This document shows positions 1 to 11,066 of a DNA stretch of 64,000 nt, piece after piece. The translations under genes and the position numbers were made by a program. Source of the DNA: Maribacter sp. BPC-D8 (lineage in GTDB: Bacteria > Bacteroidota > Bacteroidia > Flavobacteriales > Flavobacteriaceae). The DNA lies in assembly GCF_035207705.1 (NCBI RefSeq), contig NZ_CP128187.1, positions 3,348,001 to 3,412,000 of the forward strand, given 5' to 3'. Within the stretch, counting starts at the first letter, position 1, and each line of letters begins with the position of its first letter. Under the pieces are notes generated by a model. The model saw only the letters and a list, made by a program, of their open reading frames with translations. It was not told the DNA's origin and did no database searches.

Positions 1-258
1 GGCTATTTTGGTTTCATCAGAATATAAATAAGAAGCATTAATGGGTCTAAAAAGCGGGTCGTTTACGGTTACAGTAACCGTTTCTCCTTTTATATAATGT
101 TTAGCGACTTCCATGGTACCATCGCCACCATCAGCCAAAGGTCTTTTTATAATTTCAGCATCTTTAAAAACCATTTTTATACCCTCTTCTACCGCATCGC
201 AAAATTCGAATCCGGTTAAGGAACCTTTAAACTTGTCGGGAGCTATTACGAATTTCAT
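1..258 (-). CDS. Glycerate kinase, N-terminal part (cut by window edge)
   Basis: The first 86 codons of a minus-strand gene that runs off the left edge. The protein begins MKFVIAPDKFKGSLTG and continues with PLADGGDGTMEV, the N-terminal signature of the GK-II glycerate kinase family (GarK/GlxK type), which phosphorylates D-glycerate to 2-phosphoglycerate in the cytoplasm. I chose ATG at 258; an in-frame ATG two codons upstream (264) is an alternative and would add Met-Pro. The start lies only 4-10 bases after the stop of the symporter gene, so the two are almost certainly co-transcribed. Its place behind a GH63 hydrolase of the glycosylglycerate type suggests that it handles the glycerate released by that enzyme. 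Family assignment is strong; the pathway role is inferred. Confidence 0.85.
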   Translation of the reverse strand, partial: MKFVIAPDKFKGSLTGFEFCDAVEEGIKMVFKDAEIIKRPLADGGDGTMEVAKHYIKGETVTVTVNDPLFRPINASYLYSDETKIA

Positions 259-268
259 CGGCATATTT

Positions 269-1873
269 TTAATTCAAAATATTAGGTAATGAAATACTGA
301 ACAATACAATGATTACAAAATACCCTAATAATATTGCCACCTCTTTTTTACCAGAGTAATAGGTAACCTCTAAACCTTCGTTCACTTTTCTTTTTACGGT
401 ATAACTCACAGCAAGAGCAACTAGAATTGTTACCAAACAACCTAAAGCATTCCACCAGAACCAAAATATTTGTGGCACGTATAACCATAAATAAATATTG
501 AACAACACCCCTACTACGATACCGATATTGGCACCAAGTGCATGTGTTCTTTTAGTAAGAATTGCCAAAATAAAAGCTGCTAAAATAGGTCCGTAAAAGA
601 CAGAACTAATTTTATTAATTACTTCTATAACCGTACCTTCTATATTACCTGCAAAAAATGCAAAGAACAGACATACCAGACCCCAAAAAATAGATAGTAA
701 TTTTGAGTAGGTCATATATTTTTTATCGGGCATGTTTGGATTGAATCTTTTTACAAAATCTTCCATAGTTACCGCAGATAAAGAATTCACTGTAGAACTC
801 AACGTAGACATTGCTGCGGACATTATAGCGACTATCAATATACCTATCACTCCATTAGGAAGGTATTTTATGATAAAAACCGGCACCATTAAATCTGCTT
901 TTTTACCTGCTAGAGAGCCAATATTTGCTTGATACACCGTTTCCATCTGCTCTTGAAAAGTTACATCTTGCAATAATAATGTACCCAACACAAGACCCAT
1001 AATACAATAGGTCAATGTAAAAGGAAAACGAAGGAGTCCGTTCGCCATCATCAACTTTTTCAGGTTCGGCATACTACTAGATGACAACAATCGTTGCGAT
1101 TGCGTTTGATCTGTACCGTAATAAGAAGCGTAAAGAAAAAATCCACCAATGACCATAGGCCAAAATCCGAATTCATCATTTCCATCGGCATTATTGAAAC
1201 CCCATTTACTGAAATCAACCGCAGTAATTCTATCGGTATCTACATGAGCTAGAAAATTATCTACTCCGCCGAGTTCACTAAATCCGAAATACAAACAAAT
1301 GATAATACCGATAAATAGGATACTCATTTGAATGACATCTCCCCAGATTACCGCTTTCATTCCGCCTTGAAAAGAATAAACCATGGTTATAAGACCAATA
1401 ATTAGAATAGAAATCCAAAACTCTAAACCGATAGTAGCTTGTAAAATTAACGCCATGGTATAGACCATAACCCCTGTAGCTACCGATCTACTAATTTGAA
1501 AAACAAAGCTTATTAGTAATCGAGAAGAAGCATCGAATCGTGTTTCTAAGTATTCATAAACACTAACAATACCTGACTTATATAACGTTGGCAGCACTGC
1601 AATTAATAAAAATGCCATTGCCAAGGGTACACCTAATTCATAGGTAAGCCATTGCATACCACCACCTTCTTTTAGACCAACGAATGCAGGTGCAGAAATA
1701 AAGCTAATAGCAGATAATTGGGTAGCCATTGCAGACAAACTTAAAGGCAACCATGATGTTTTACGACCACCTAAAAAATAATCTCCACCTGTGTTATTAT
1801 CCTTGAACATGAAGCCCAAGCCTAAAAAACCCACTAGGTAAACGACAATAATAATATAATCAACGTAATTCAT
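269..1873 (-). CDS. SSS-family sodium:solute symporter
   Basis: A 534-residue inner-membrane protein with about 13 hydrophobic segments and the sodium:solute symporter (SSS/SLC5-like) signature near the N-terminus: GDYFLGGRKTSW at residues 30-41, followed by LSAMATQLSAISFISAPA. Members couple Na+ influx to uptake of sugars, sugar acids, amino acids or similar small solutes. The gene sits between a GH63 hydrolase (upstream) and glycerate kinase (downstream) in one minus-strand run, so its cargo is probably the glycoside itself or one of its hydrolysis products. The ATG at 1873 is three bases after the stop of a 28-codon ORF whose product resembles the first 28 residues of this transporter; the stop/start junction (tag gat atg) suggests translational coupling. 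Substrate cannot be read from the sequence. Confidence 0.9.
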   Translation of the reverse strand: MNYVDYIIIVVYLVGFLGLGFMFKDNNTGGDYFLGGRKTSWLPLSLSAMATQLSAISFISAPAFVGLKEGGGMQWLTYELGVPLAMAFLLIAVLPTLYKSGIVSVYEYLETRFDASSRLLISFVFQISRSVATGVMVYTMALILQATIGLEFWISILIIGLITMVYSFQGGMKAVIWGDVIQMSILFIGIIICLYFGFSELGGVDNFLAHVDTDRITAVDFSKWGFNNADGNDEFGFWPMVIGGFFLYASYYGTDQTQSQRLLSSSSMPNLKKLMMANGLLRFPFTLTYCIMGLVLGTLLLQDVTFQEQMETVYQANIGSLAGKKADLMVPVFIIKYLPNGVIGILIVAIMSAAMSTLSSTVNSLSAVTMEDFVKRFNPNMPDKKYMTYSKLLSIFWGLVCLFFAFFAGNIEGTVIEVINKISSVFYGPILAAFILAILTKRTHALGANIGIVVGVLFNIYLWLYVPQIFWFWWNALGCLVTILVALAVSYTVKRKVNEGLEVTYYSGKKEVAILLGYFVIIVLFSISLPNILN

Positions 1874-1876
1874 ATC

Positions 1877-1963
1877 CTAGTTTTTATTTTTTTTAATCAA
1901 GAGACCTACTCCTAAAATACCCATTATGTAAAATCCGATTAAAAAATAATCAATGTAGTTCAT
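1877..1963 (-). CDS. 28-residue membrane microprotein resembling the symporter N-terminus
   Basis: A small ORF in the gap between the hydrolase and symporter genes, same strand. It starts MNYIDYFLIGFY and ends LLIKKNKN, so it is one hydrophobic helix with a positively charged C-terminus. Aligned without gaps to residues 1-28 of the following symporter (MNYVDYIIIVVYLVGF...), 13 of 28 positions are identical. The gap to the hydrolase stop is 33 bases and the stop is 3 bases before the symporter ATG, as expected for a translated operon member. Short accessory proteins are known beside some symporters of this superfamily, so it could be a subunit; it could also be a leader or the remnant of a duplicated transporter 5' end. 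No protein-level evidence is available from sequence. Confidence 0.45.
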   Translation of the reverse strand: MNYIDYFLIGFYIMGILGVGLLIKKNKN

Positions 1964-1996
1964 TTTTAAATCTTTAAATCAATTTATAACAAAGCA

Positions 1997-3310
1997 CTAT
2001 GGCGTATTTACCATATCGATAAACAAAGCGGCACTCCAAGAAAAATTATTTCCACCATAACCAGGCGTATTATCTTCACCAGTGTCTTTTCTACAATCAA
2101 AGTATTCGTAGAAGCCATATTTCTCGATTAGCTCTATGCTATCTTGCTTCATACGTGCGGCAACATCAGTAAATCCGTAATTCTTAAGTCCTAGAAAAAG
2201 CATCCAGTTCATATTGATCCAAACGGGACCTCTCCAGTATTTTTTAGGATTAAATCGATCGTTTGTAGGATCAAAAGAAGCACATAGGTATTTATCGTCT
2301 CCACCGAATTTATCCATCATTGTTTTAACTAAAATTTCAGCTCTTTCTGGAGAAGGAATGTTTGCGAATAATGGTGAAAAAGAAGAAGATGTTATATGAC
2401 GAATAGGCTTTTCATTTCTTAAATCGTAGTGTACATAAGCACCTAATTCAGCATCAAATAACTTTTCATTAAAGCTTTTTATACTTTTAGCTTGCCATTT
2501 TAAGATGGTCTTAATTTTTTCTTCATTGCCACCAATTATTTCATATAATTCAATTAATGCTTGGTTAGATTTTATCAGCATTGCATTAAACAAGGGATCT
2601 TGAACCAAAAACGGGGAAAGCTCTGCTATTTTGGCATCATCATAATTGTTTTGCTTAGCAATATCTATGATATGTAAATAGTGATCATACTCTCTTTTAG
2701 TCGGACGCTGAGAAGCGTCTACATGGGTAGTATCTTTTCGAACAAAAGTATATTCTGGCGGATTCATGGTTTTCCAGATATCATCCCAAACAGGGGAGTT
2801 ATCTGTACCAGATTCCCAGTTGTGATAGATGTATACCAAACCTTCATTTTGAGGGTCTCTATTTTCATAGAAATACACATGATTTTCAAAAACTTTATCG
2901 ATATCCTCTTTGATGTAGTTGAGCATATCTTGCTTATCTTCTGCAATACGATACATTTCTTGTAGCACAAAACCTGTTACCGGCGGCTGGGTCATACCTG
3001 TAGACCTATATTTTTTGGAGGACAAGGGATGCAATTCAGATTGATGAAAATCTGCCCCTGGAAAATAAGAATCGTTCTCTGTATGAAAAACGATATGTGG
3101 TATAAAACCATTACCCCATTGCGCATCTAGCAAAGTTCTCATTTCAGTTTTTGCCTTTTCAACATCGTAATGAGCAAAACCTATAGCAATAAATCCAGAA
3201 TCCCACTTCCATTGAAAAGGATATAAACCTGCACTAGGTATAGTAAAACCACCTTCTTGAAAATTTGCATCTAAAACTGCAATTGCTTTTTTATATAATT
3301 CTTCGTTCAT
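1997..3310 (-). CDS. GH63-type glycoside hydrolase, probable mannosyl-/glucosylglycerate hydrolase
   Basis: About 437 residues, all one (alpha/alpha)6-barrel-type domain, without a recognisable signal peptide, so probably cytoplasmic. Landmarks are LYPFQWKWDSGF near the N-terminus, HNWESGTDNSPVWD around residue 165 (D170 a likely general acid) and GFYEYFD around residue 400 (E402 a likely base), then GYGGNNFSWSAAL at the end. This length and motif set match the small bacterial GH63 enzymes that hydrolyse mannosylglycerate or glucosylglycerate. A glycerate kinase in the same operon supports this over a trehalase or glucosidase role. I use the ATG at 3310 because the longer ORF (ATG at 3337) runs through a GC-rich hairpin at 3327-3347; the longer start cannot be excluded. 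Substrate is an inference from context. Confidence 0.8.
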   Translation of the reverse strand: MNEELYKKAIAVLDANFQEGGFTIPSAGLYPFQWKWDSGFIAIGFAHYDVEKAKTEMRTLLDAQWGNGFIPHIVFHTENDSYFPGADFHQSELHPLSSKKYRSTGMTQPPVTGFVLQEMYRIAEDKQDMLNYIKEDIDKVFENHVYFYENRDPQNEGLVYIYHNWESGTDNSPVWDDIWKTMNPPEYTFVRKDTTHVDASQRPTKREYDHYLHIIDIAKQNNYDDAKIAELSPFLVQDPLFNAMLIKSNQALIELYEIIGGNEEKIKTILKWQAKSIKSFNEKLFDAELGAYVHYDLRNEKPIRHITSSSFSPLFANIPSPERAEILVKTMMDKFGGDDKYLCASFDPTNDRFNPKKYWRGPVWINMNWMLFLGLKNYGFTDVAARMKQDSIELIEKYGFYEYFDCRKDTGEDNTPGYGGNNFSWSAALFIDMVNTP

Positions 3311-3326
3311 ATTATCTAGTAAATAA

Positions 3327-3389
3327 CCTCGGGACAAGCCCGCGAGGCATTAAATTGAAAACATAATTACTATTTCGACGCATGCGTCG
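3327..3389. other. Palindrome-rich leader upstream of the hydrolase gene
   Basis: The 180-bp gap between the receptor and hydrolase genes holds two inverted repeats in this span. One is a hairpin at 3327-3347 with arms cctcggg and cccgcgagg (one bulged base). The other is a perfect 14-bp palindrome, cgacgcatgcgtcg, at 3376-3389. Both are much more GC-rich than the surroundings. On the minus strand they lie in the 5' leader of the hydrolase gene and could act as an mRNA processing or stability element, or be small interspersed repeats. No protein site is recognised. Confidence 0.4.
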
Positions 3390-3400
3390 GAGCATTTAAT

Positions 3401-3416
3401 TCTCGATTATCGAGTA
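3401..3416. repeat. 16-bp dyad repeat, copy 1
   Basis: tctcgattatcgagta, a short dyad (ctcga...tcgag). Its exact reverse complement occurs at 10493-10508 in another intergenic gap. The copy here lies just beyond the U-tract side of the receptor terminator. It may be a small interspersed palindromic element. Confidence 0.45.
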
Positions 3417-3455
3417 AAAAAAACACATTGGCAATTCTTCAACGACCAATGTGTT
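3415..3455 (-). terminator. Rho-independent terminator of the TonB receptor gene
   Basis: On the minus strand the stem aacacattgg / ccaatgtgtt (3446-3455 with 3422-3431) closes a 14-base loop and is followed by a run of Ts at 3415-3421. It lies 35 bases past the receptor stop codon, so it would separate receptor transcription from the hydrolase-symporter-kinase genes, fully or partly. Confidence 0.75.
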
Positions 3456-3489
3456 CATCAATTAAACTTAAACTAACAACAAATACTTT

Positions 3490-6165
3490 TTAGAAATTGA
3501 AGGTTGCCGTAACAAACAATCTTCTAGGTAAAATTGGTCTACCAACAAAAAATTGAGATTCTGTTTGACCAGCTGAACCTGCTCTAGGATTACCTTCTGT
3601 GATACCATCACTATCGAATAGGTTGAAAACTGACACCCCTAAACGAACCGAATGGTTGTTATCTTCTTTTGAAAATGTATAACCTGCACCTAATCTGCCA
3701 ATTGTTATGGCATCTAATTCTATATTATTGGTATCATCTGTAAATTTTGCACCAGTGTAGTTGAATCCGAAATTTGCATCGAAAGCAGCATTATCATAAT
3801 ACAATCCTAATCCGCCTAATAAGTTTGGCTGTCTTGCCAATTCGTTACCAACATTAGCTTCTGTAGAAGTACCATTTACTAAATCGAAATCGGTATTTTT
3901 TGTAATCTCATGATCTTGATATGTTACATTACCACGAAGATTTAAGTATTGTGCAATAGAATAATCTCCAGTAGCTTCAATACCTATTGTTCTTGTATTT
4001 TGCTCTGCTCTTGTTTCATCTATTAATTGACCACCTACAATTGCTTGGCGAATAGATACACGATCTTTAAGACCTACATAGTACCCTGCAACAGATCCTG
4101 AGAATTTCTCGTTACCGAATTTGGCACCAGCTTCAAATTGAATAATATTTTCAGCATCGTAAGGACTTTCAGAAATACCAGGTACCGGAGCAAAACCTCT
4201 TAATTGTGGAAAGAAATATCCTTTAGAGAAGTTAGCATATAGGTTGGTTGTTTCAGTTAACTCATATAAACCAGCTAAAGACAATGCCCAAGCACTCGCA
4301 TTTACTTCTGTTCTTAAGAAAGAACCATCTGCAGTTTGTACATCACTAAGTTCTGTAGTAATATCTGGAGTAGAATAAACGTTTTCGCTCATAATACCAC
4401 CACGACTGTTGATACCATCTGTATGTTCCCATCTGAAACCAACATCAAAACGCCATCTGTCTAAAATCATCTCATCTGTAACATATAATGCCACTCTATT
4501 TTGAGAAAGAAAGTTATTAGCCGTCTGACCAATACGGTTATAAAGTCCGCCTTGCGAATACACTACATTATCGCCACCAGCATCGGTATAATTTAAGTTT
4601 ACCAATTGTGGGTTATTGTTGAATTCTGTCAATACTCTGTACTGATAGTTAACATCTTCAGCCTCTGTACGAGCGATATAAGAACCAACAGTAATGTTAT
4701 GGTTACCGCCGTTTGCCGTTTCAATAGATTTTGTAAGGTTGATCTCACCAGAGTAATCTGTCATTGGGCGTAAACGATCTACATGTAAATTATCGATTAC
4801 TAAATCATTACCATTAATTTGAGAACCTGATCCACTTTGGTAAGCAGCAGTATACCCTAAGTTACCAGGAGCAATACTTTCTACATAATTATCTAAAGTG
4901 ATAGGGTTTCCGTTATTACCGTTACCACCAACATATAATGCGAAATTGTGTTTGTAGTTAGCATATTTAATCTTAGAAGTCAATTTAAGATCATCGTCAA
5001 ATCTGTAATTGAAATCTCCCATAATGTAACCACCTGTAGTTGCAACACCATCTGCAATCGGACTATTATATGTTCCACCAGGAGTATTGAATGAAGTATT
5101 CGCTAAGTCACCAGATAACAATTGTTCAACTGGGTTACCATCATTACCGTTTATACGCTCTCTACCACCACCACTTAGAGGTATAGGAAGATAAAATTGT
5201 GCCTTATCGTCAATAAACTGTCCGCTTAAAGTAAAAGAACCGTTATCGAATTTCTTTTTAATATTACCTCTAAATTGAACACCTTTAGTTGGAAGACCCA
5301 CGTCTATAGGACCTCTATCATGACGTACAAAACCTGTAAAAGCATAGTACGTATTAGAATCTTCGCCACCTAGTTGACCACCAGAATAGAAATCTGTTTT
5401 AATTCTACCTTGGTTGGCAACTTCAATATTAATAATGTTACCAGGGTTTGTATCACCCGTTTTACTTGTGTAGTTGATAATACCGGCAACAGAACCAGCA
5501 CCATATAATACAGCTGCACCACCACGAACAAATTCAACACCTTTAAAACCTATATCTGGTCTTGCATACACATCATGCGCAGAAGAATTTAGTCCGAAAG
5601 AACTAATTAAAGGCATACCGTCATACTGTAAAGGGTTAAAAACATACTGACCACCAGAAGGTAAACCTCTAACGAATATGTTACTTGCCGTTTCACCACC
5701 ACCACCTTCAGCGGTAATACCAGGTACACTTCTAAGAATATCTGCCTGACTATTAGCAGAAAGCTTAGTAATTTCTTTCATTTTAACAGAGCTAATAGAT
5801 AAAGGAGCCTGCTTTTGAGAACGAAATGTACTAGAAGCTGTTAAAACAACTTCATCAAGTTGCTGACCACCTTCTTGCAACACAACATTTACAGTTTGTG
5901 CCGTACCGTTTAAATCTAATGATTTGTCAACAGATGTAAACCCTATATATGATACACGTAATATTTGAGCACCGGTAAGGTCTGTTGAAAAAGTAAAATT
6001 ACCATCAAAATCTGATGTTGTACCCGATGTACTACCTGTAATTAAAATGTTAGCACCGGGAATTGGCTCTCCTGAATTGTCTGTTACGGTTCCTGAAATA
6101 TCGGTCTGTGCAAAGGAGCCTGCACTGATAAGAAGTCCGATTACCGCAAAAATAATTTTCTTCAT
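3490..6165 (-). CDS. TonB-dependent outer-membrane receptor with carboxypeptidase-like N-terminal domain
   Basis: 891 residues. A signal peptide (MKKIIFAVIGLLISAGSFAQ) is followed by a carboxypeptidase-D regulatory-like domain (about 21-105, ISGTVTDNSGEPIPGANI), a plug domain (about 115-235, with LRSVPGITAEGG and the typical EFVRGGAAVLYGAGSVAG), and a 22-strand type barrel ending in FNF, the usual terminal aromatic. Such receptors import ligands across the outer membrane using TonB-ExbBD energy. There is no SusD partner, which suits a small ligand rather than a polysaccharide. It is divergent from the LacI regulator gene and followed on the same strand by the glycosylglycerate-type catabolic genes, so it is the likely outer-membrane entry point for their substrate. 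Family certain, ligand inferred. Confidence 0.93.
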   Translation of the reverse strand: MKKIIFAVIGLLISAGSFAQTDISGTVTDNSGEPIPGANILITGSTSGTTSDFDGNFTFSTDLTGAQILRVSYIGFTSVDKSLDLNGTAQTVNVVLQEGGQQLDEVVLTASSTFRSQKQAPLSISSVKMKEITKLSANSQADILRSVPGITAEGGGGETASNIFVRGLPSGGQYVFNPLQYDGMPLISSFGLNSSAHDVYARPDIGFKGVEFVRGGAAVLYGAGSVAGIINYTSKTGDTNPGNIINIEVANQGRIKTDFYSGGQLGGEDSNTYYAFTGFVRHDRGPIDVGLPTKGVQFRGNIKKKFDNGSFTLSGQFIDDKAQFYLPIPLSGGGRERINGNDGNPVEQLLSGDLANTSFNTPGGTYNSPIADGVATTGGYIMGDFNYRFDDDLKLTSKIKYANYKHNFALYVGGNGNNGNPITLDNYVESIAPGNLGYTAAYQSGSGSQINGNDLVIDNLHVDRLRPMTDYSGEINLTKSIETANGGNHNITVGSYIARTEAEDVNYQYRVLTEFNNNPQLVNLNYTDAGGDNVVYSQGGLYNRIGQTANNFLSQNRVALYVTDEMILDRWRFDVGFRWEHTDGINSRGGIMSENVYSTPDITTELSDVQTADGSFLRTEVNASAWALSLAGLYELTETTNLYANFSKGYFFPQLRGFAPVPGISESPYDAENIIQFEAGAKFGNEKFSGSVAGYYVGLKDRVSIRQAIVGGQLIDETRAEQNTRTIGIEATGDYSIAQYLNLRGNVTYQDHEITKNTDFDLVNGTSTEANVGNELARQPNLLGGLGLYYDNAAFDANFGFNYTGAKFTDDTNNIELDAITIGRLGAGYTFSKEDNNHSVRLGVSVFNLFDSDGITEGNPRAGSAGQTESQFFVGRPILPRRLFVTATFNF

Positions 6166-6225
6166 AATGTTTGAGTTTTTTTTAAGTTGAGTCGATTTAA
6201 ATTATCAAATCGTTGATTATGAGAC

Positions 6226-6258
6226 CAAATTATATGAATATAGCATTCTGTTAACCAA
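6226..6258 (-). promoter_or_regulatory. Candidate promoter of the TonB receptor gene
   Basis: On the minus strand a TTTG (6255-6258) is followed after 20 bases by tataatttg (6226-6234), close to the Bacteroidota TTTG/TAnnTTTG pattern but with one extra base. The LacI-type operators lie upstream of this -33 element. Tentative. Confidence 0.3.
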
Positions 6259-6276
6259 ATATTAACGAATTTTCTA

Positions 6277-6302
6277 TGCAAACGTTTGCACAAACGTTTG
6301 CA
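6277..6302. promoter_or_regulatory. Tandem LacI-type operator
   Basis: Two copies of the palindromic core caaacgtttg (6279-6288 and 6291-6300), centres 12 bp apart. The first extends to a perfect 14-bp palindrome, tgcaaacgtttgca. This core, with a central CG, is the classic LacI/GalR-family site. It lies between the divergent receptor and LacI genes, so it is the expected binding site of the regulator at 6361. Confidence 0.8.
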
Positions 6303-6328
6303 ATTTATTTTGTAGTATTGTATTTCTG
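6298..6328 (+). promoter_or_regulatory. Candidate promoter of the LacI regulator gene
   Basis: TTG at 6298-6300, 20 bases, then tatttctg at 6321-6328, one mismatch from TAnnTTTG. The -33 element is inside the second LacI operator, which suggests autoregulation by occlusion. Confidence 0.4.
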
Positions 6329-6360
6329 ATAAAATCATCATAATTCACTGATTTTCAATT

Positions 6361-7386
6361 ATGAGCAAAAAGAGAAATACCACATTAAAAGAGTTATCTA
6401 AAGAATTGAGTCTATCAATTTCCACAGTTTCTAGGGCACTCAACGATCACCCCGATATTAGCCAAGGCACTAAAGAGCGGGTTAGAAAGCTCGCTAAGCA
6501 AATGAATTATGTACCCAATTTATTTGCTAGAGGCTTTCGCTCGCGTGAAACTCATATACTTGGTGTAATTGTACCGAACATATCTCATTTGTTTACCTCA
6601 ACTATTTTGAAGGGAATTTTAGAGGAAGCCGAGCTACGCGGATATCGTGTTATTATTTCAGAATCTAACAATAATGAAGTAAAACAGGTGGAGATGCTGA
6701 ATACCATGACCCAATTTGGTGTAGATGGTGTATTGATGTCTTTGTCTAGAAAGACAACCAATGTTGAAGAAATATTAAAAATATTAAATCGCATACCAAT
6801 CGTGTTGTTCGATAAGGTCTCTAGTAAAATACCCTGTACACAAGTTGTAATAAATGAAGAGGAAGCTGCATTTAATGCCGTTGAGCATTTAATTGAACTG
6901 GGTAAACAGCGTATTGCTATCATTAAGGAAACAGAGAATTCTTATAATTCTGAAAAAAGGTATGCTGGTTATTTAAGAGCCTTAAACCAATATGGTATAC
7001 CCGTGCGTGATAAACTTATTTTAAGCACAGAGGATATTTCTTTAGGAAACGGAAGACGATTGACCAATATTCTATTAAGCATGAAGAAGCGCCCTGATGC
7101 TATTTTCGCAATAACAGATAATGCTGCCATCGGCGCAATAAAGGCACTACATAAGTTCAAGGTAAAAATACCCGAAGAAATAGCTGTAGTAGGTTTTAGC
7201 AACTCCATTAACTCCACCATCGTGAGTCCCGCTTTAACCACAGTAGATCAACCAGGTGATAAAATAGGTAGAACGGCAGTACGTTTTTTAATTCAAGAAC
7301 TTGAAAACCCTACCAATGATGTAATCACAAAAACCGTTGAGATCAAAACCAGCCTTATCGTTAGGGATTCTTCTTTTATGGTGTAA
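6361..7386 (+). CDS. LacI-family transcriptional regulator
   Basis: 341 residues. Residues 8-56 are a LacI-type helix-turn-helix with hinge (TLKELSKELSLSISTVSRAL, then NYVPNLFARGF). Residues 66-338 are the periplasmic-binding-protein-like ligand domain (ILGVIVPNISHLF, VVGFSNS, LTTVDQPG). Family members bind CG-centred palindromes and respond to a sugar or sugar-like effector. The gene is divergent from the TonB receptor, and a tandem palindrome of the right kind lies between them 60-80 bases before this start. It is therefore the probable local regulator of the receptor-hydrolase-symporter-kinase genes, with a glycosylglycerate or hydrolysis product as effector; the effector is not deducible from sequence. 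Confidence 0.92.
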   Translation: MSKKRNTTLKELSKELSLSISTVSRALNDHPDISQGTKERVRKLAKQMNYVPNLFARGFRSRETHILGVIVPNISHLFTSTILKGILEEAELRGYRVIISESNNNEVKQVEMLNTMTQFGVDGVLMSLSRKTTNVEEILKILNRIPIVLFDKVSSKIPCTQVVINEEEAAFNAVEHLIELGKQRIAIIKETENSYNSEKRYAGYLRALNQYGIPVRDKLILSTEDISLGNGRRLTNILLSMKKRPDAIFAITDNAAIGAIKALHKFKVKIPEEIAVVGFSNSINSTIVSPALTTVDQPGDKIGRTAVRFLIQELENPTNDVITKTVEIKTSLIVRDSSFMV

Positions 7387-7437: not shown

Positions 7438-8979
7438 TTACAACGGAATATTACCATGCTTCTTCTTTGGTAAAGTAGCTACTTTATTCTCGAGCATTGT
7501 ATATGCTTTTATAAGTTTTCTTCTGGTGTCTTTTGGTTGAATTACTTCATCTATAAACCCTCTTTGTGCAGCGCTATATGGGTTAGCAAATAATTCTGCA
7601 TATTCTGCTTCTTTTTCAGCCAATTTCGCCACAGGATCATCAGCTGCACTTATTTCTTTCTTAAAAATAATTTCACTTGCTCCCTTTGCTCCCATCACTG
7701 CAATTTCTGCACCTGGCCAAGCATAATTTAAATCCGCTCCAATATGTTTAGAGTTCATTACATCATAAGCACCACCGTACGCTTTTCTAGTAATTACGGT
7801 TACTTTAGGCACCGTTGCTTCACTAAGAGCATATAATAATTTTGCGCCGTTAGTTATAATCCCGTTCCATTCTTGATCAGTACCGGGTAAAAATCCTGGA
7901 ACATCTACCAAAACTAAAAGCGGAATATTGAAACAATCGCAAAAACGAGTAAAACGTGCTGCCTTTTTAGAACTATCAACATCTAAAACACCAGCCAAAC
8001 TAATAGGCTGATTGGCAACAATGCCAATACTTTTACCTCCAAGTCTTGCAAAACCTACAACGATGTTGTCGGCATATGCTTCATGAATTTCAAAGAAGGT
8101 ATCTTCATCGATAATTCCGTTGATTACGTGACGCATATCGTAAGGCTGATTTGCATTCTCAGGAACAATATCTTCTAATACATCGCGAACCTCATTACCT
8201 AACTCAAATGGCAAATCTGATGGTTTATCTTCGCAGTTTTGAGGTATATAGATAATCATCTGTTTAATCTGATTGATACATTGAATATCGTTAGCAGCCG
8301 TTAAATGTGTAACTCCAGACTTGGTCGCATGGGTCAACGCACCACCAAGCTCTTCTGACGTCACCTCTTCATTGGTTACCGTTTTTACCACATTCGGACC
8401 TGTAACAAACATATAACTAGAGTTCTCTACCATTAAGGTAAAATCGGTCATTGCAGGCGAGTAAACTGCACCACCGGCACAAGGTCCCATTATAGCAGAA
8501 ATCTGCGGAATTACTCCCGATGCCATTACGTTCTTATGAAAAATATCAGCGTAGCCGCCTAATGAACGAACCCCTTCTTGAATTCGAGCACCACCACTAT
8601 CATTTAAACCAATCATAGGCACACCTATTTTCATAGCCATATCCATTATTTTACAAATTTTTTCGGCATGGGTTTCAGAAAGCGCACCACCAAAAACTGT
8701 GAAATCTTGTGCAAAAACGCAAACTTGTCTTCCGTTAATAGTTCCGTAACCTGTTATCACTCCGTCACCATAGAAAACTTGTTTTTCCATACCGAAATCT
8801 TTGGTACGGTGTGTAACCAAAGCGCCCATTTCTTCAAATGAGCCATCATCTAACAAAAAATGAACACGTTCACGAGCAGTCAACTTTCCTTTGGCGTGCT
8901 GTTTATCAATACGTGCTTGACCACCACCTAATTTAGCCAATGCCAGTTTCTCTGCTAGTATCTGTTTATTATCTTTCAT
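7438..8979 (-). CDS. Acyl-CoA carboxylase carboxyltransferase (propionyl-CoA carboxylase beta type)
   Basis: 513 residues, the usual length for the fused-lobe carboxyltransferase of acyl-CoA/propionyl-CoA carboxylase (PccB type), with N- and C-terminal crotonase-like lobes. Visible signatures are [18 protein letters not shown] and [16 protein letters not shown], glycine-rich loops that form the oxyanion holes, and [14 protein letters not shown] and [11 protein letters not shown] in the C-terminal lobe. It moves the carboxyl group from carboxybiotin to an acyl-CoA in the cytoplasm. It is the last gene of a minus-strand operon (biotin carrier, biotin carboxylase, this gene), 27 bases after the biotin carboxylase stop. 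The whole set makes a complete three-polypeptide enzyme. Propionyl-CoA is the most likely substrate; acetyl- or methylcrotonyl-CoA cannot be excluded from sequence alone. Confidence 0.9.
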
Positions 8980-9006
8980 TCTAATTTTTCAAATCAATTT
9001 GCAATT

Positions 9007-10479
9007 TTAAGCTCTACTCTTCTTCCAATTCGAAGAAACCTTAGTCGGAATTTTTACTATTTTATCATTTTCTAAATACAGCTTTAAGGCTACTAATGCT
9101 GCTATTCTTCTTTCTTCAGCATATTGCTTTTCTAAATGCTCTGGAGAATAGTAGTTTTTGACAAAATGTGTATCGAAATTTCCTGATGTAAAAGCTTCAT
9201 GTTCACATACAAATTTGCCAAAAGACAAAGTTGTGGCAACACCTTCTACTTTATAACCATCAATTGCCTTTATCATTAATTGTATGGCTTCCTCCCTATT
9301 TTTCCCATAGGTAATCAACTTAGAAATCATGGGGTCATAATAAATAGGAACTTCCATACCTTCTTCGAAACCATCATCAACACGAATACCTTCTCCAATG
9401 GGAGTTTTATAAGTAGTTAACCTACCGATACTCGGCATAAAGTTAGCTAACGGGTCTTCTGCATATACACGAACTTCAAGCGCATGACCTGTTATTTTTA
9501 AATCCGCTTGGGTAAAAGCCAACTTTTCGCCACGAGCTACTTTTATTTGTTGTTCTACTAAATCAATACCAGATATTAACTCAGACACCGGATGCTCAAC
9601 TTGCAGCCTAGTATTCATTTCTAAGAAGTAGAAATTCTTTTTTTCGTCCAGTAAAAATTCCACCGTACCTGCGCCAACATAATCGCAAGCTCTTGCTACC
9701 TTAATAGCAGCTTCACCCATAACTTTTCTAATTTCTGGGGTAAGCACTGCTGAAGGAGCTTCTTCAACTACTTTTTGATGCCTTCTTTGCACACTACATT
9801 CACGTTCAAATAAATGAACAATATTACCATGTGTATCGGCAAGTACTTGAATTTCTATATGTCTGGGAGAGCCTACGTACTTTTCTATAAAAACAGAACC
9901 ATCACCAAATGCAGCTAGTGCTTCACTGATAGCTCTGTCCATTTGTTCTGGTAGATCTTTCAAGTTTTCAACCACACGCATGCCTTTACCGCCACCACCT
10001 GCAGAAGCTTTTATTAAAATTGGGAAACCTATTTGCATAGCTACTTTTTCAGCTAATGCAACATCGGTTATAGCTTCTTCAATACCTGGCACCATAGGAA
10101 TATCATAATCGCGAACTGCTTCTTTGGCGGCTAGCTTATTCCCCATCACCTTAATAGCATGAGGTTTGGGTCCTATAAATACGATGCCATTATCCTCAAC
10201 CATTTGCGCGAACACTGCATTTTCACTTAAGAATCCGTAACCCGGGTGAATACCTTCTGCTCCGGTTACTTTAGCTGCATTAATAATTTTCTCCATTACC
10301 AGATAAGATTCTGATGATGGTGCAGGACCTAGTAAAACCGCTTCATCGGCAAATTTTACGTGTGGCGAATGACGATCAACTTCTGAATAAACGGCAACTG
10401 TTTTAATACCCATTTTCTGGGCAGTCTTCATTATTCGCAAAGCTATTTCACCTCTATTGCCTATTAATATTTTTTTCAT
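9007..10479 (-). CDS. Biotin carboxylase subunit of acyl-CoA carboxylase
   Basis: 490 residues with the three biotin-carboxylase domains: N-terminal fold (KKILIGNRGEIALRI), ATP-grasp with GGGGKGMR at 161-168 and the conserved EMNTRLQVEHP at 287-297, and the C-terminal domain (HALEVRVYAEDP). It carboxylates the biotin of the carrier protein using ATP and bicarbonate. The C-terminus is about 40 residues longer than Escherichia coli AccC and has no biotinyl domain; the carrier is a separate gene just upstream. Position in the operon, next to a PccB-type carboxyltransferase rather than accA/accD, indicates a degradative or anaplerotic acyl-CoA carboxylase, probably for propionyl-CoA. Confidence 0.92.
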   Translation of the reverse strand: MKKILIGNRGEIALRIMKTAQKMGIKTVAVYSEVDRHSPHVKFADEAVLLGPAPSSESYLVMEKIINAAKVTGAEGIHPGYGFLSENAVFAQMVEDNGIVFIGPKPHAIKVMGNKLAAKEAVRDYDIPMVPGIEEAITDVALAEKVAMQIGFPILIKASAGGGGKGMRVVENLKDLPEQMDRAISEALAAFGDGSVFIEKYVGSPRHIEIQVLADTHGNIVHLFERECSVQRRHQKVVEEAPSAVLTPEIRKVMGEAAIKVARACDYVGAGTVEFLLDEKKNFYFLEMNTRLQVEHPVSELISGIDLVEQQIKVARGEKLAFTQADLKITGHALEVRVYAEDPLANFMPSIGRLTTYKTPIGEGIRVDDGFEEGMEVPIYYDPMISKLITYGKNREEAIQLMIKAIDGYKVEGVATTLSFGKFVCEHEAFTSGNFDTHFVKNYYSPEHLEKQYAEERRIAALVALKLYLENDKIVKIPTKVSSNWKKSRA

Positions 10480-10492
10480 TTAAAACTTAATT

Positions 10493-10508
10493 TACTCGAT
10501 AATCGAGA
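10493..10508. repeat. 16-bp dyad repeat, copy 2
   Basis: tactcgataatcgaga, the exact reverse complement of 3401-3416. It lies in the 107-bp gap between the biotin carrier and biotin carboxylase genes, 14 bases upstream of the latter's start on the minus strand. Confidence 0.45.
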
Positions 10509-10586
10509 TTTAACTAATGGGAACTTTTCTCGAATATTTAAGATATTCATATTCTAAAAACCCATAAGGATGCCTTAATATATTTT

Positions 10587-11066
10587 CTATTCCATTTCAA
10601 TAATCACCTGTCCTTTCTCTACAGCGTCGTCTTTCTTAATCTCAATAGATTTAATAATTCCCTCACCTTGGGCAAGAATAATATTTTCCATTTTCATGGC
10701 AGACAAAACTAATAAGGGAGTACCCTCTACAATCTCTTGACCTACCTTAACCATTACATCAACAATTAACCCGGGCATTGGAGCTTTTACCTCATTCAAT
10801 TTCTGAGTCGTTACTGCTAGTAATCCCATTTTTTTGACCTGCTGATCGTACTCATCTTCAAGTTTAACTTCGTAAATATTTCCATTGATAGACAATGACA
10901 TCGTCTTGTTCATAAAATCTGAATGCACTATCTCCACCTCAAAAGCAGTATTATTATCTAAAACATGAAGGGTTTGTGCATTAACATTTATGCTATCTAA
11001 AGAATCAACATCGCTACTATTGTAGTCTAGCTCTTCTTCGTTTACGGTAATTAAATAGTTTGGCAT
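10587..11066 (-). CDS. Biotin/lipoyl carrier protein of acyl-CoA carboxylase
   Basis: 159 residues. The C-terminal half (about 90-159) is a biotinyl domain with APMPGLIVDV and the biotinylation motif AMKMEN, with lysine 125 as the attachment site. The N-terminal half is low-complexity and acidic and probably packs on the partner subunits. It is the first gene of the three-gene carboxylase operon and shuttles carboxybiotin between the biotin carboxylase and the carboxyltransferase. The 107-bp gap to the next gene is larger than the 27 bp that follows it, and holds a 16-bp dyad repeat, but same strand and function make co-transcription likely. Confidence 0.9.
   Translation of the reverse strand: MPNYLITVNEEELDYNSSDVDSLDSINVNAQTLHVLDNNTAFEVEIVHSDFMNKTMSLSINGNIYEVKLEDEYDQQVKKMGLLAVTTQKLNEVKAPMPGLIVDVMVKVGQEIVEGTPLLVLSAMKMENIILAQGEGIIKSIEIKKDDAVEKGQVIIEME

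Follow-up and report, generated by a model that had tools for sequence, protein, structure and literature searches.

Among the described systems, the mannosylglycerate hydrolase (MgH) of Thermus thermophilus (2z07, 4wva-4wvc) and the glucosylglycerate hydrolase of Mycolicibacterium hassiacum (MhGgH; 5ohc and others) are the closest solved relatives of the enzyme considered here. To our knowledge, no operon comprising a TonB-dependent receptor, a sodium:solute symporter of the SSS family and a LacI-type regulator has been described for the Thermus enzyme. MhGgH was reported to split both glucosylglycerate (GG) and mannosylglycerate (MG), with GG being the better substrate, and the mycobacterial enzyme serves recovery from nitrogen starvation (PMC6608630). 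In this study, an operon located at the beginning of a stretch of 64,000 nucleotides (hereafter referred to as the window) of the Maribacter sp. BPC-D8 genome (assembly GCF_035207705.1, contig NZ_CP128187.1, positions 3,348,001 to 3,412,000) was analyzed. Its genes probably serve to scavenge an alpha-glycosyl-D-glycerate under the control of LacI, with alpha-mannosylglycerate (digeneaside) being the most likely compound. A trait list by Barbeyron et al. 2016b reportedly contains the digeneaside-degradation genes of Zobellia galactanivorans.

Digeneaside is a heteroside formed by most Ceramiales red algae in place of floridoside (PMC8523428). Homologues of the Z. galactanivorans digeneaside-degradation genes were reported for Maribacter dokdonensis 62-1 (PMC8072126), and digeneaside was named among further possible substrates of flavobacterial polysaccharide utilization loci (PULs) (PMC6298971); with these earlier predictions in relatives, the novelty implied by the original prediction made for this DNA is not upheld. 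The window's operon is likely identical with the published genes, which have the same predicted function and originate from the same and a sister genus. A literature search covering titles and the beginnings of abstracts, with subscription journals mostly outside its coverage, returned no experimental test of such an operon. What is added here to the prior prediction is the full operon, a linked isomerase, a conserved composite operator of 24 bp and the presence or absence of the gene module beside a resident glycerate kinase (GK). Like SusC/SusD-type PULs, the locus combines a TonB-dependent receptor with a neighboring glycoside hydrolase under a local regulator, but unlike in these PULs the proposed substrate is a small glycoside. 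Assignment to the SusC/D type was rejected, since the receptor reached 108.8 bits against a cut-off of 368 for TIGR04056 and is flanked by LacI and GH63 genes, not by SusD (the wider region was not profiled for SusD).

Hydrolase family, active site and predicted pathway

The minus strand between positions 1 and 6165 encodes the TonB-dependent receptor, a GH63 hydrolase, the symporter and the start of GK, and a LacI-family gene is oriented divergently (Table 1). Open reading frames (ORFs), Pfam matches and a sequence scan recovered all elements that had been noticed originally, including the tandem operator. Pfam model PF22422 (MGH1-like_GH) covers the hydrolase over profile positions 1-356 of 356, with a score far above those of the weaker Trehalase and Glyco_hydro_63 C-terminal matches. 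The best solved relative is Thermus MgH (2z07/4wva; E-value 3e-93; 42% identity, 173/408 aligned positions), followed by MhGgH (E-value 3e-63; 34% identity, 140/408).

In order to evaluate the active site, 20 positions of MhGgH were mapped, namely the acid/base pair, position 434 and 17 further residues described in PMC6608630. The catalytic pair (D170 and E402) and 17 of the 18 other positions are identical to MhGgH. Among the conserved residues are the counterparts of the acid D182, the base E419 and the polar glycerate contacts Y36, W40, Y88, R216 and Y375 described for MhGgH (PMC6608630); catalytic pair and contacts are also common to the window's enzyme and Thermus MgH. The sole exception is Gln433 of loop E, which is replaced by Asn here and by Gly in Thermus MgH. 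The same source gives Gln434 as a sugar contact (PMC6608630), and in our own count of the MhGgH chain Gln is found at 433 and Phe at 434, so that the Gln434 numbering is uncertain. Unlike MhGgH, the window's enzyme lacks the loop-E Gln and scored below the curated cut-off of the corresponding NCBIfam equivalog (NF047898; 329.8 bits, cut-off 550). By domain as well as catalytic and contact residues, it matches the GH63 mannosylglycerate hydrolases (EC 3.2.1.170), and hydrolysis of MG to mannose and glycerate is predicted for it. The glycosylglycerate-hydrolase type proposed originally was thus substantiated by the nearest solved relative and the conserved glycerate contacts. Visual inspection revealed no outstanding N-terminal hydrophobic stretch, in line with a cytoplasmic location of an enzyme supplied by the symporter. 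Assignment as a trehalase-like or disaccharide hydrolase was rejected based on the profile scores and the conserved glycerate contacts. A phage search with the hydrolase returned one match of 25%.

Family assignments of the remaining operon proteins are firm as well. The symporter exceeded the TIGR00813 cut-off (254 vs. 184 bits), its best solved relatives being sodium/iodide, multivitamin and monocarboxylate cotransporters, 5nv9 and SGLT. Full-length GK, related to the solved proteins 3cwc and 1to6, scored above the curated cut-offs of PF02595 (456 bits) and TIGR00045 (428 bits, cut-off 168).

In the proposed pathway, the TonB-dependent receptor would transfer the glycoside across the outer membrane, and the symporter would import it intact, together with Na+, into the cytoplasm. 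The GH63 enzyme, acting by inversion, would then release mannose and glycerate. The latter would be converted to phosphoglycerate by GK, and mannose would be channeled via a hexokinase and mannose-6-phosphate isomerase to fructose-6-phosphate. LacI may occupy the double operator and be released when the glycoside or a product thereof is present. The specific GK product claimed before, 2-phosphoglycerate, did not gain support, because GK stayed below the cut-offs of both E. coli models, glycerate 2-kinase and glycerate 3-kinase. Utilization of glycosylglycerates as such, also claimed originally, is supported by the enzyme family, the aglycone-binding residues, the linked GK and synteny, and a glycerate glycoside is very probably the substrate.

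Table 1. Features of the predicted glycosylglycerate utilization locus. Coordinates refer to the window; L002 coordinates equal window coordinates plus 10000.
Feature	Coordinates	Strand	Evidence
GK, 5' part	1..264	-	Pfam PF02595 1.2e-136; remainder left of the window
GK, full gene (376 aa)	L002:9134-10264	-	Read from genome sequence
SSS-family sodium:solute symporter, candidate for import of the intact glycoside through the inner membrane	269..1873	-	Pfam SSF 1.9e-45
GH63 (MGH1-like) glycosylglycerate hydrolase, 437 aa	1997..3310	-	PF22422 7e-92
TonB-dependent receptor with CarboxypepD_reg N-terminal domain	3490..6165	-	Pfam Plug and TonB barrel
Double operator composed of two sites of 12 bp, each centred on CG, at a distance of 12 bp; together the 24-bp element GCAAACGTTNNNNNNAACGTTTGC	6278..6301		
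Divergent LacI-family regulator	6361..7386	+	Pfam LacI and Peripla_BP

Intergenic gaps amount to 179 bases (receptor-GH63), 123 bases (GH63-symporter), 4 bases (symporter-GK) and 195 bases (LacI-receptor). The GH63 gene starts with ATG; an extended reading from TTG at 3337 is not matched in the aligned relatives. Adjoining the locus (7438-11066), three minus-strand genes resemble a biotin-dependent acyl-CoA carboxylase (carboxyltransferase, biotin carboxylase and biotin carrier), as named by eye. A second GK, 43% identical, is located elsewhere in the same genome (G000:C1:4106110-4107210; L189), and neighbors of approximately the same sizes were observed in a genome of the same genus (G075; L233) that has no hydrolase match.

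Synteny and operator conservation among relatives

Gene order was compared in two overlapping sets of loci. Among 299 genomes drawn from the family, 43 encode the hydrolase, and 41 of these loci were examined including the window's own (G205 and the partial G281 were left out). From 571 confirmed loci, the best 80 make up the named set, which is therefore biased to close relatives. Genes were called crudely as the longest, little overlapping ORFs of at least 90 aa and labelled by blastp against five, later eight, reference proteins.

For 68 of the 80 named loci, at least 5 kb were available on both sides, and within these the symporter was found in 68, GK in 67, LacI in 64 and the receptor in 63 cases. 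Considering all 80, symporter and GK are linked in 78 and 75, respectively. The search for co-occurring GH63, GK and SSS genes suggested along with the original prediction yielded a linkage among these relatives. In the family set, a symporter gene in the same orientation is found at most two genes after the hydrolase at every locus (41/41), GK is linked in 36/41 and LacI is divergent in 24/41. GK was present in all 43 genomes encoding GH63 vs. 93 of the 256 without it (Fisher's exact test, p 3e-17, ignoring shared descent).

The nearest named relatives are Maribacter members, with the M. spongiicola hydrolase being 98% identical. Many of the named hosts are assigned to Maribacter, Zobellia, Algibacter and similar genera known for an association with algae. 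The order LacI-receptor-GH63-SSS-GK was observed in Zobellia and Maribacter relatives (L075-L079, L081-L083, L085-L087), the last three loci being those of Zobellia uliginosa, Z. amurskyensis and Z. barbeyronii, which share the window's gene order. In this group, L080 has no receptor label and L084 carries an extra GNAT gene. Three consecutive ORFs match the symporter in L055 and two match the receptor in L075, representing broken genes, repeats or sequencing errors.

Upstream of the receptor gene, the palindromes GCAAACGTTTGC and ACAAACGTTTGC are arranged head to tail. Within the 4.78-Mb genome, a single exact match to the 12-mer GCAAACGTTTGC exists, located at this locus, so control is probably local. 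Across 95 LacI-bearing loci (24 family, 71 named), the 12-mer was found with up to two mismatches in 93, vs. 0.3% of shuffled sequences, and 64 contain two or more copies, listed 12 bases apart. Counting the 24-bp element yielded 82 distinct sites, 75 of which have at most four mismatches and 70 at most two in the 18 specified bases. Its outer halves show hardly any variation, unlike four positions in the interior; perfect 24-bp inverted repeats were read by hand in at least three loci (L136, L138, L146). The composite operator reads as two adjacent putative sites for LacI dimers. A scan for sigma-70 promoters yielded fewer sites than in shuffled sequences.

Mannosylglycerate and glucosylglycerate as candidate substrates

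In several relatives, the operon is extended by a gene for class I mannose-6-phosphate isomerase (ManA), which lies directly after GK in 8 of the 80 named loci (8/75 with GK) and in 5 of the 36 family loci with GK. It is encoded on the same strand as GK at a distance of -20 to 15 bases overall and of -20 to 11 bases in the named loci, and all three ManA genes scanned passed TIGR00218. As controls, 41 GK loci unlinked to GH63 were used, i.e., 40 from the 93 GK-bearing genomes without GH63, mostly the top-scoring ones, and the second GK of the window's genome. ManA follows GK in none of them; LacI and GH63 are likewise absent, and one control carries a symporter label at 26% identity. Fisher's exact test, in which shared descent is ignored, gave p 0.05 for the named and p 0.02 for the family loci. 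On a quick GH63 tree, the ManA trait requires at least six changes. A further manA gene is located elsewhere in four of the five genomes tested, and the fifth, G218, has none besides that in the operon. The position of ManA right after GK points to mannose and hence to MG, so that the evidence favours digeneaside over GG; MG is probably the main substrate.

The same operon could alternatively serve GG as its main substrate, e.g., originating from marine picocyanobacteria. In favor of this, MhGgH prefers GG at 34% identity, and GG is, together with sucrose, a major compatible solute of Prochlorococcus NATL2A (PMC11631117). Moreover, the best NCBIfam model is named glucosylglycerate hydrolase, albeit with a score below its cut-off. 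GG as the main substrate nevertheless appears unlikely, given the closer relationship of the hydrolase to Thermus MgH, the identity of the companion gene after GK as ManA and the many hosts belonging to the algae-associated genera listed above.

Several observations weigh against the assignment to MG or to a glycerate glycoside in general. The window's own locus is devoid of ManA, ManA-like genes being encoded elsewhere in the genome, and linkage to ManA occurs in few loci, with modest statistical support. Since MhGgH accepts both GG and MG, the sequence does not fix the hexose, and the loop-E Gln433/434 region, which bears on sugar preference, is not conserved. GK is not exclusive to the pathway, as it occurs in the 93 genomes without GH63 mentioned above and in a second copy in the window's genome. 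Five family loci show no linked GK; one of them ends at a contig edge (L052), and the other 4/41 (L056, L058, L059, L060) have GK elsewhere in the genome. In a draw across the phylum, 19 of 395 genomes encode the hydrolase, seven of them of the same family. Within 15 distant GH63 loci of the phylum (identity of 38-43%; flanks of 7 kb in most cases), a symporter was found in three (L174 and L176, which also feature a receptor, and L175) and GK was labelled in none, so that the GK linkage is established for nearer relatives only.

Evolution of the module and possible implications for red-algal exudate use

Genes resembling uppP and ftsX, named by eye from their sequences, flank the operon in 7 of the 41 family and 13 of the 80 named loci, where the LacI-receptor-GH63-SSS module is located between uppP and GK. 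The same neighbors occur without the module at 18 of the 40 GK loci lacking the hydrolase; presence and absence of the module in different Flavobacteriaceae can be seen by comparing L039-L044 and L046 with the controls L204-L232. It therefore appears that some lineages gained or lost the module next to a resident kinase and that in others it travels with GK.

Due to the frequency of GK without GH63, the uppP-ftsX neighborhood and the missing GK labels in distant loci, the kinase is weakened as sole proof of the aglycone. These findings, as well as the weaker Trehalase and GH63 C-terminal matches, would also agree with a hydrolase acting on another alpha-glycoside (trehalose-like, kojibiose or short glucans) with GK as an unrelated neighbor. 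This explanation is very unlikely, however, considering the far higher score of the MGH1-like model, the retained glycerate contacts, the immediate proximity of symporter and GK in the window, the GK linkage in 67/68 named loci and the Maribacter and Zobellia loci, which are without uppP-ftsX neighbors. Endogenous turnover of a self-made solute, as in the mycobacterial relative recycling its own solute after nitrogen starvation (PMC6608630), is most improbable for an operon with a TonB receptor, a symporter and LacI control in a genome without a match to the mannosyl-3-phosphoglycerate synthase model TIGR02460 (the Thermus control genome matched; of the MG/GG synthase families, the scan covered this one).

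Returning to the scavenging of digeneaside, the individual predictions can be combined as follows: the operon would constitute the main flavobacterial route for red-algal MG, its TonB receptor would be dedicated to a glycerate glycoside of 268 Da, LacI would bind as two dimers to the 24-bp operator, and the LacI-receptor-GH63-SSS module would be mobile between genomes, in some lineages beside a resident GK near uppP and ftsX. In its entirety, this combination is put forward tentatively and is somewhat doubtful.

Additional genes were observed in part of the loci. A GNAT acetyltransferase gene, absent in the window, separates the hydrolase and symporter genes in 19 of the 80 named loci (among the GNAT-bearing loci are L084, L093, L111, L112, L117 and L041:7880-8488) and in the distant L174; on a quick hydrolase tree, this trait requires at least 11 changes. 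The recurrence of this gene might point to an additional step not described so far. Within the lower-identity loci L062-L072, which have neither LacI nor a receptor label, 8 of 11 carry a divergent gene of 271-290 aa before GH63. The one scanned (L065:7610-8425) encodes a MurNAc-6-phosphate etherase, and genes of similar size are present in L062, L064 and L067-L071. Further genes located within the operon or behind it, each scanned once, encode a GH97 enzyme (L139), a GH13 enzyme (L150), an aldo/keto reductase (L124), a MocA-type oxidoreductase (L106) and an LD-carboxypeptidase (L143). Genes of the size of the latter are found at the same place in L149, L151 and L153, and an LD-carboxypeptidase-like gene may thus recur in the Allomuricauda group.

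In the literature searched, digeneaside uptake by marine bacteria has so far only been predicted. The receptor represents a candidate TonB-dependent transporter for a small solute, and the hydrolase allows for a clear enzymatic test of MG vs. GG. Being conserved across many flavobacterial genera, the operon would provide a marker gene set for the use of red-algal exudates.

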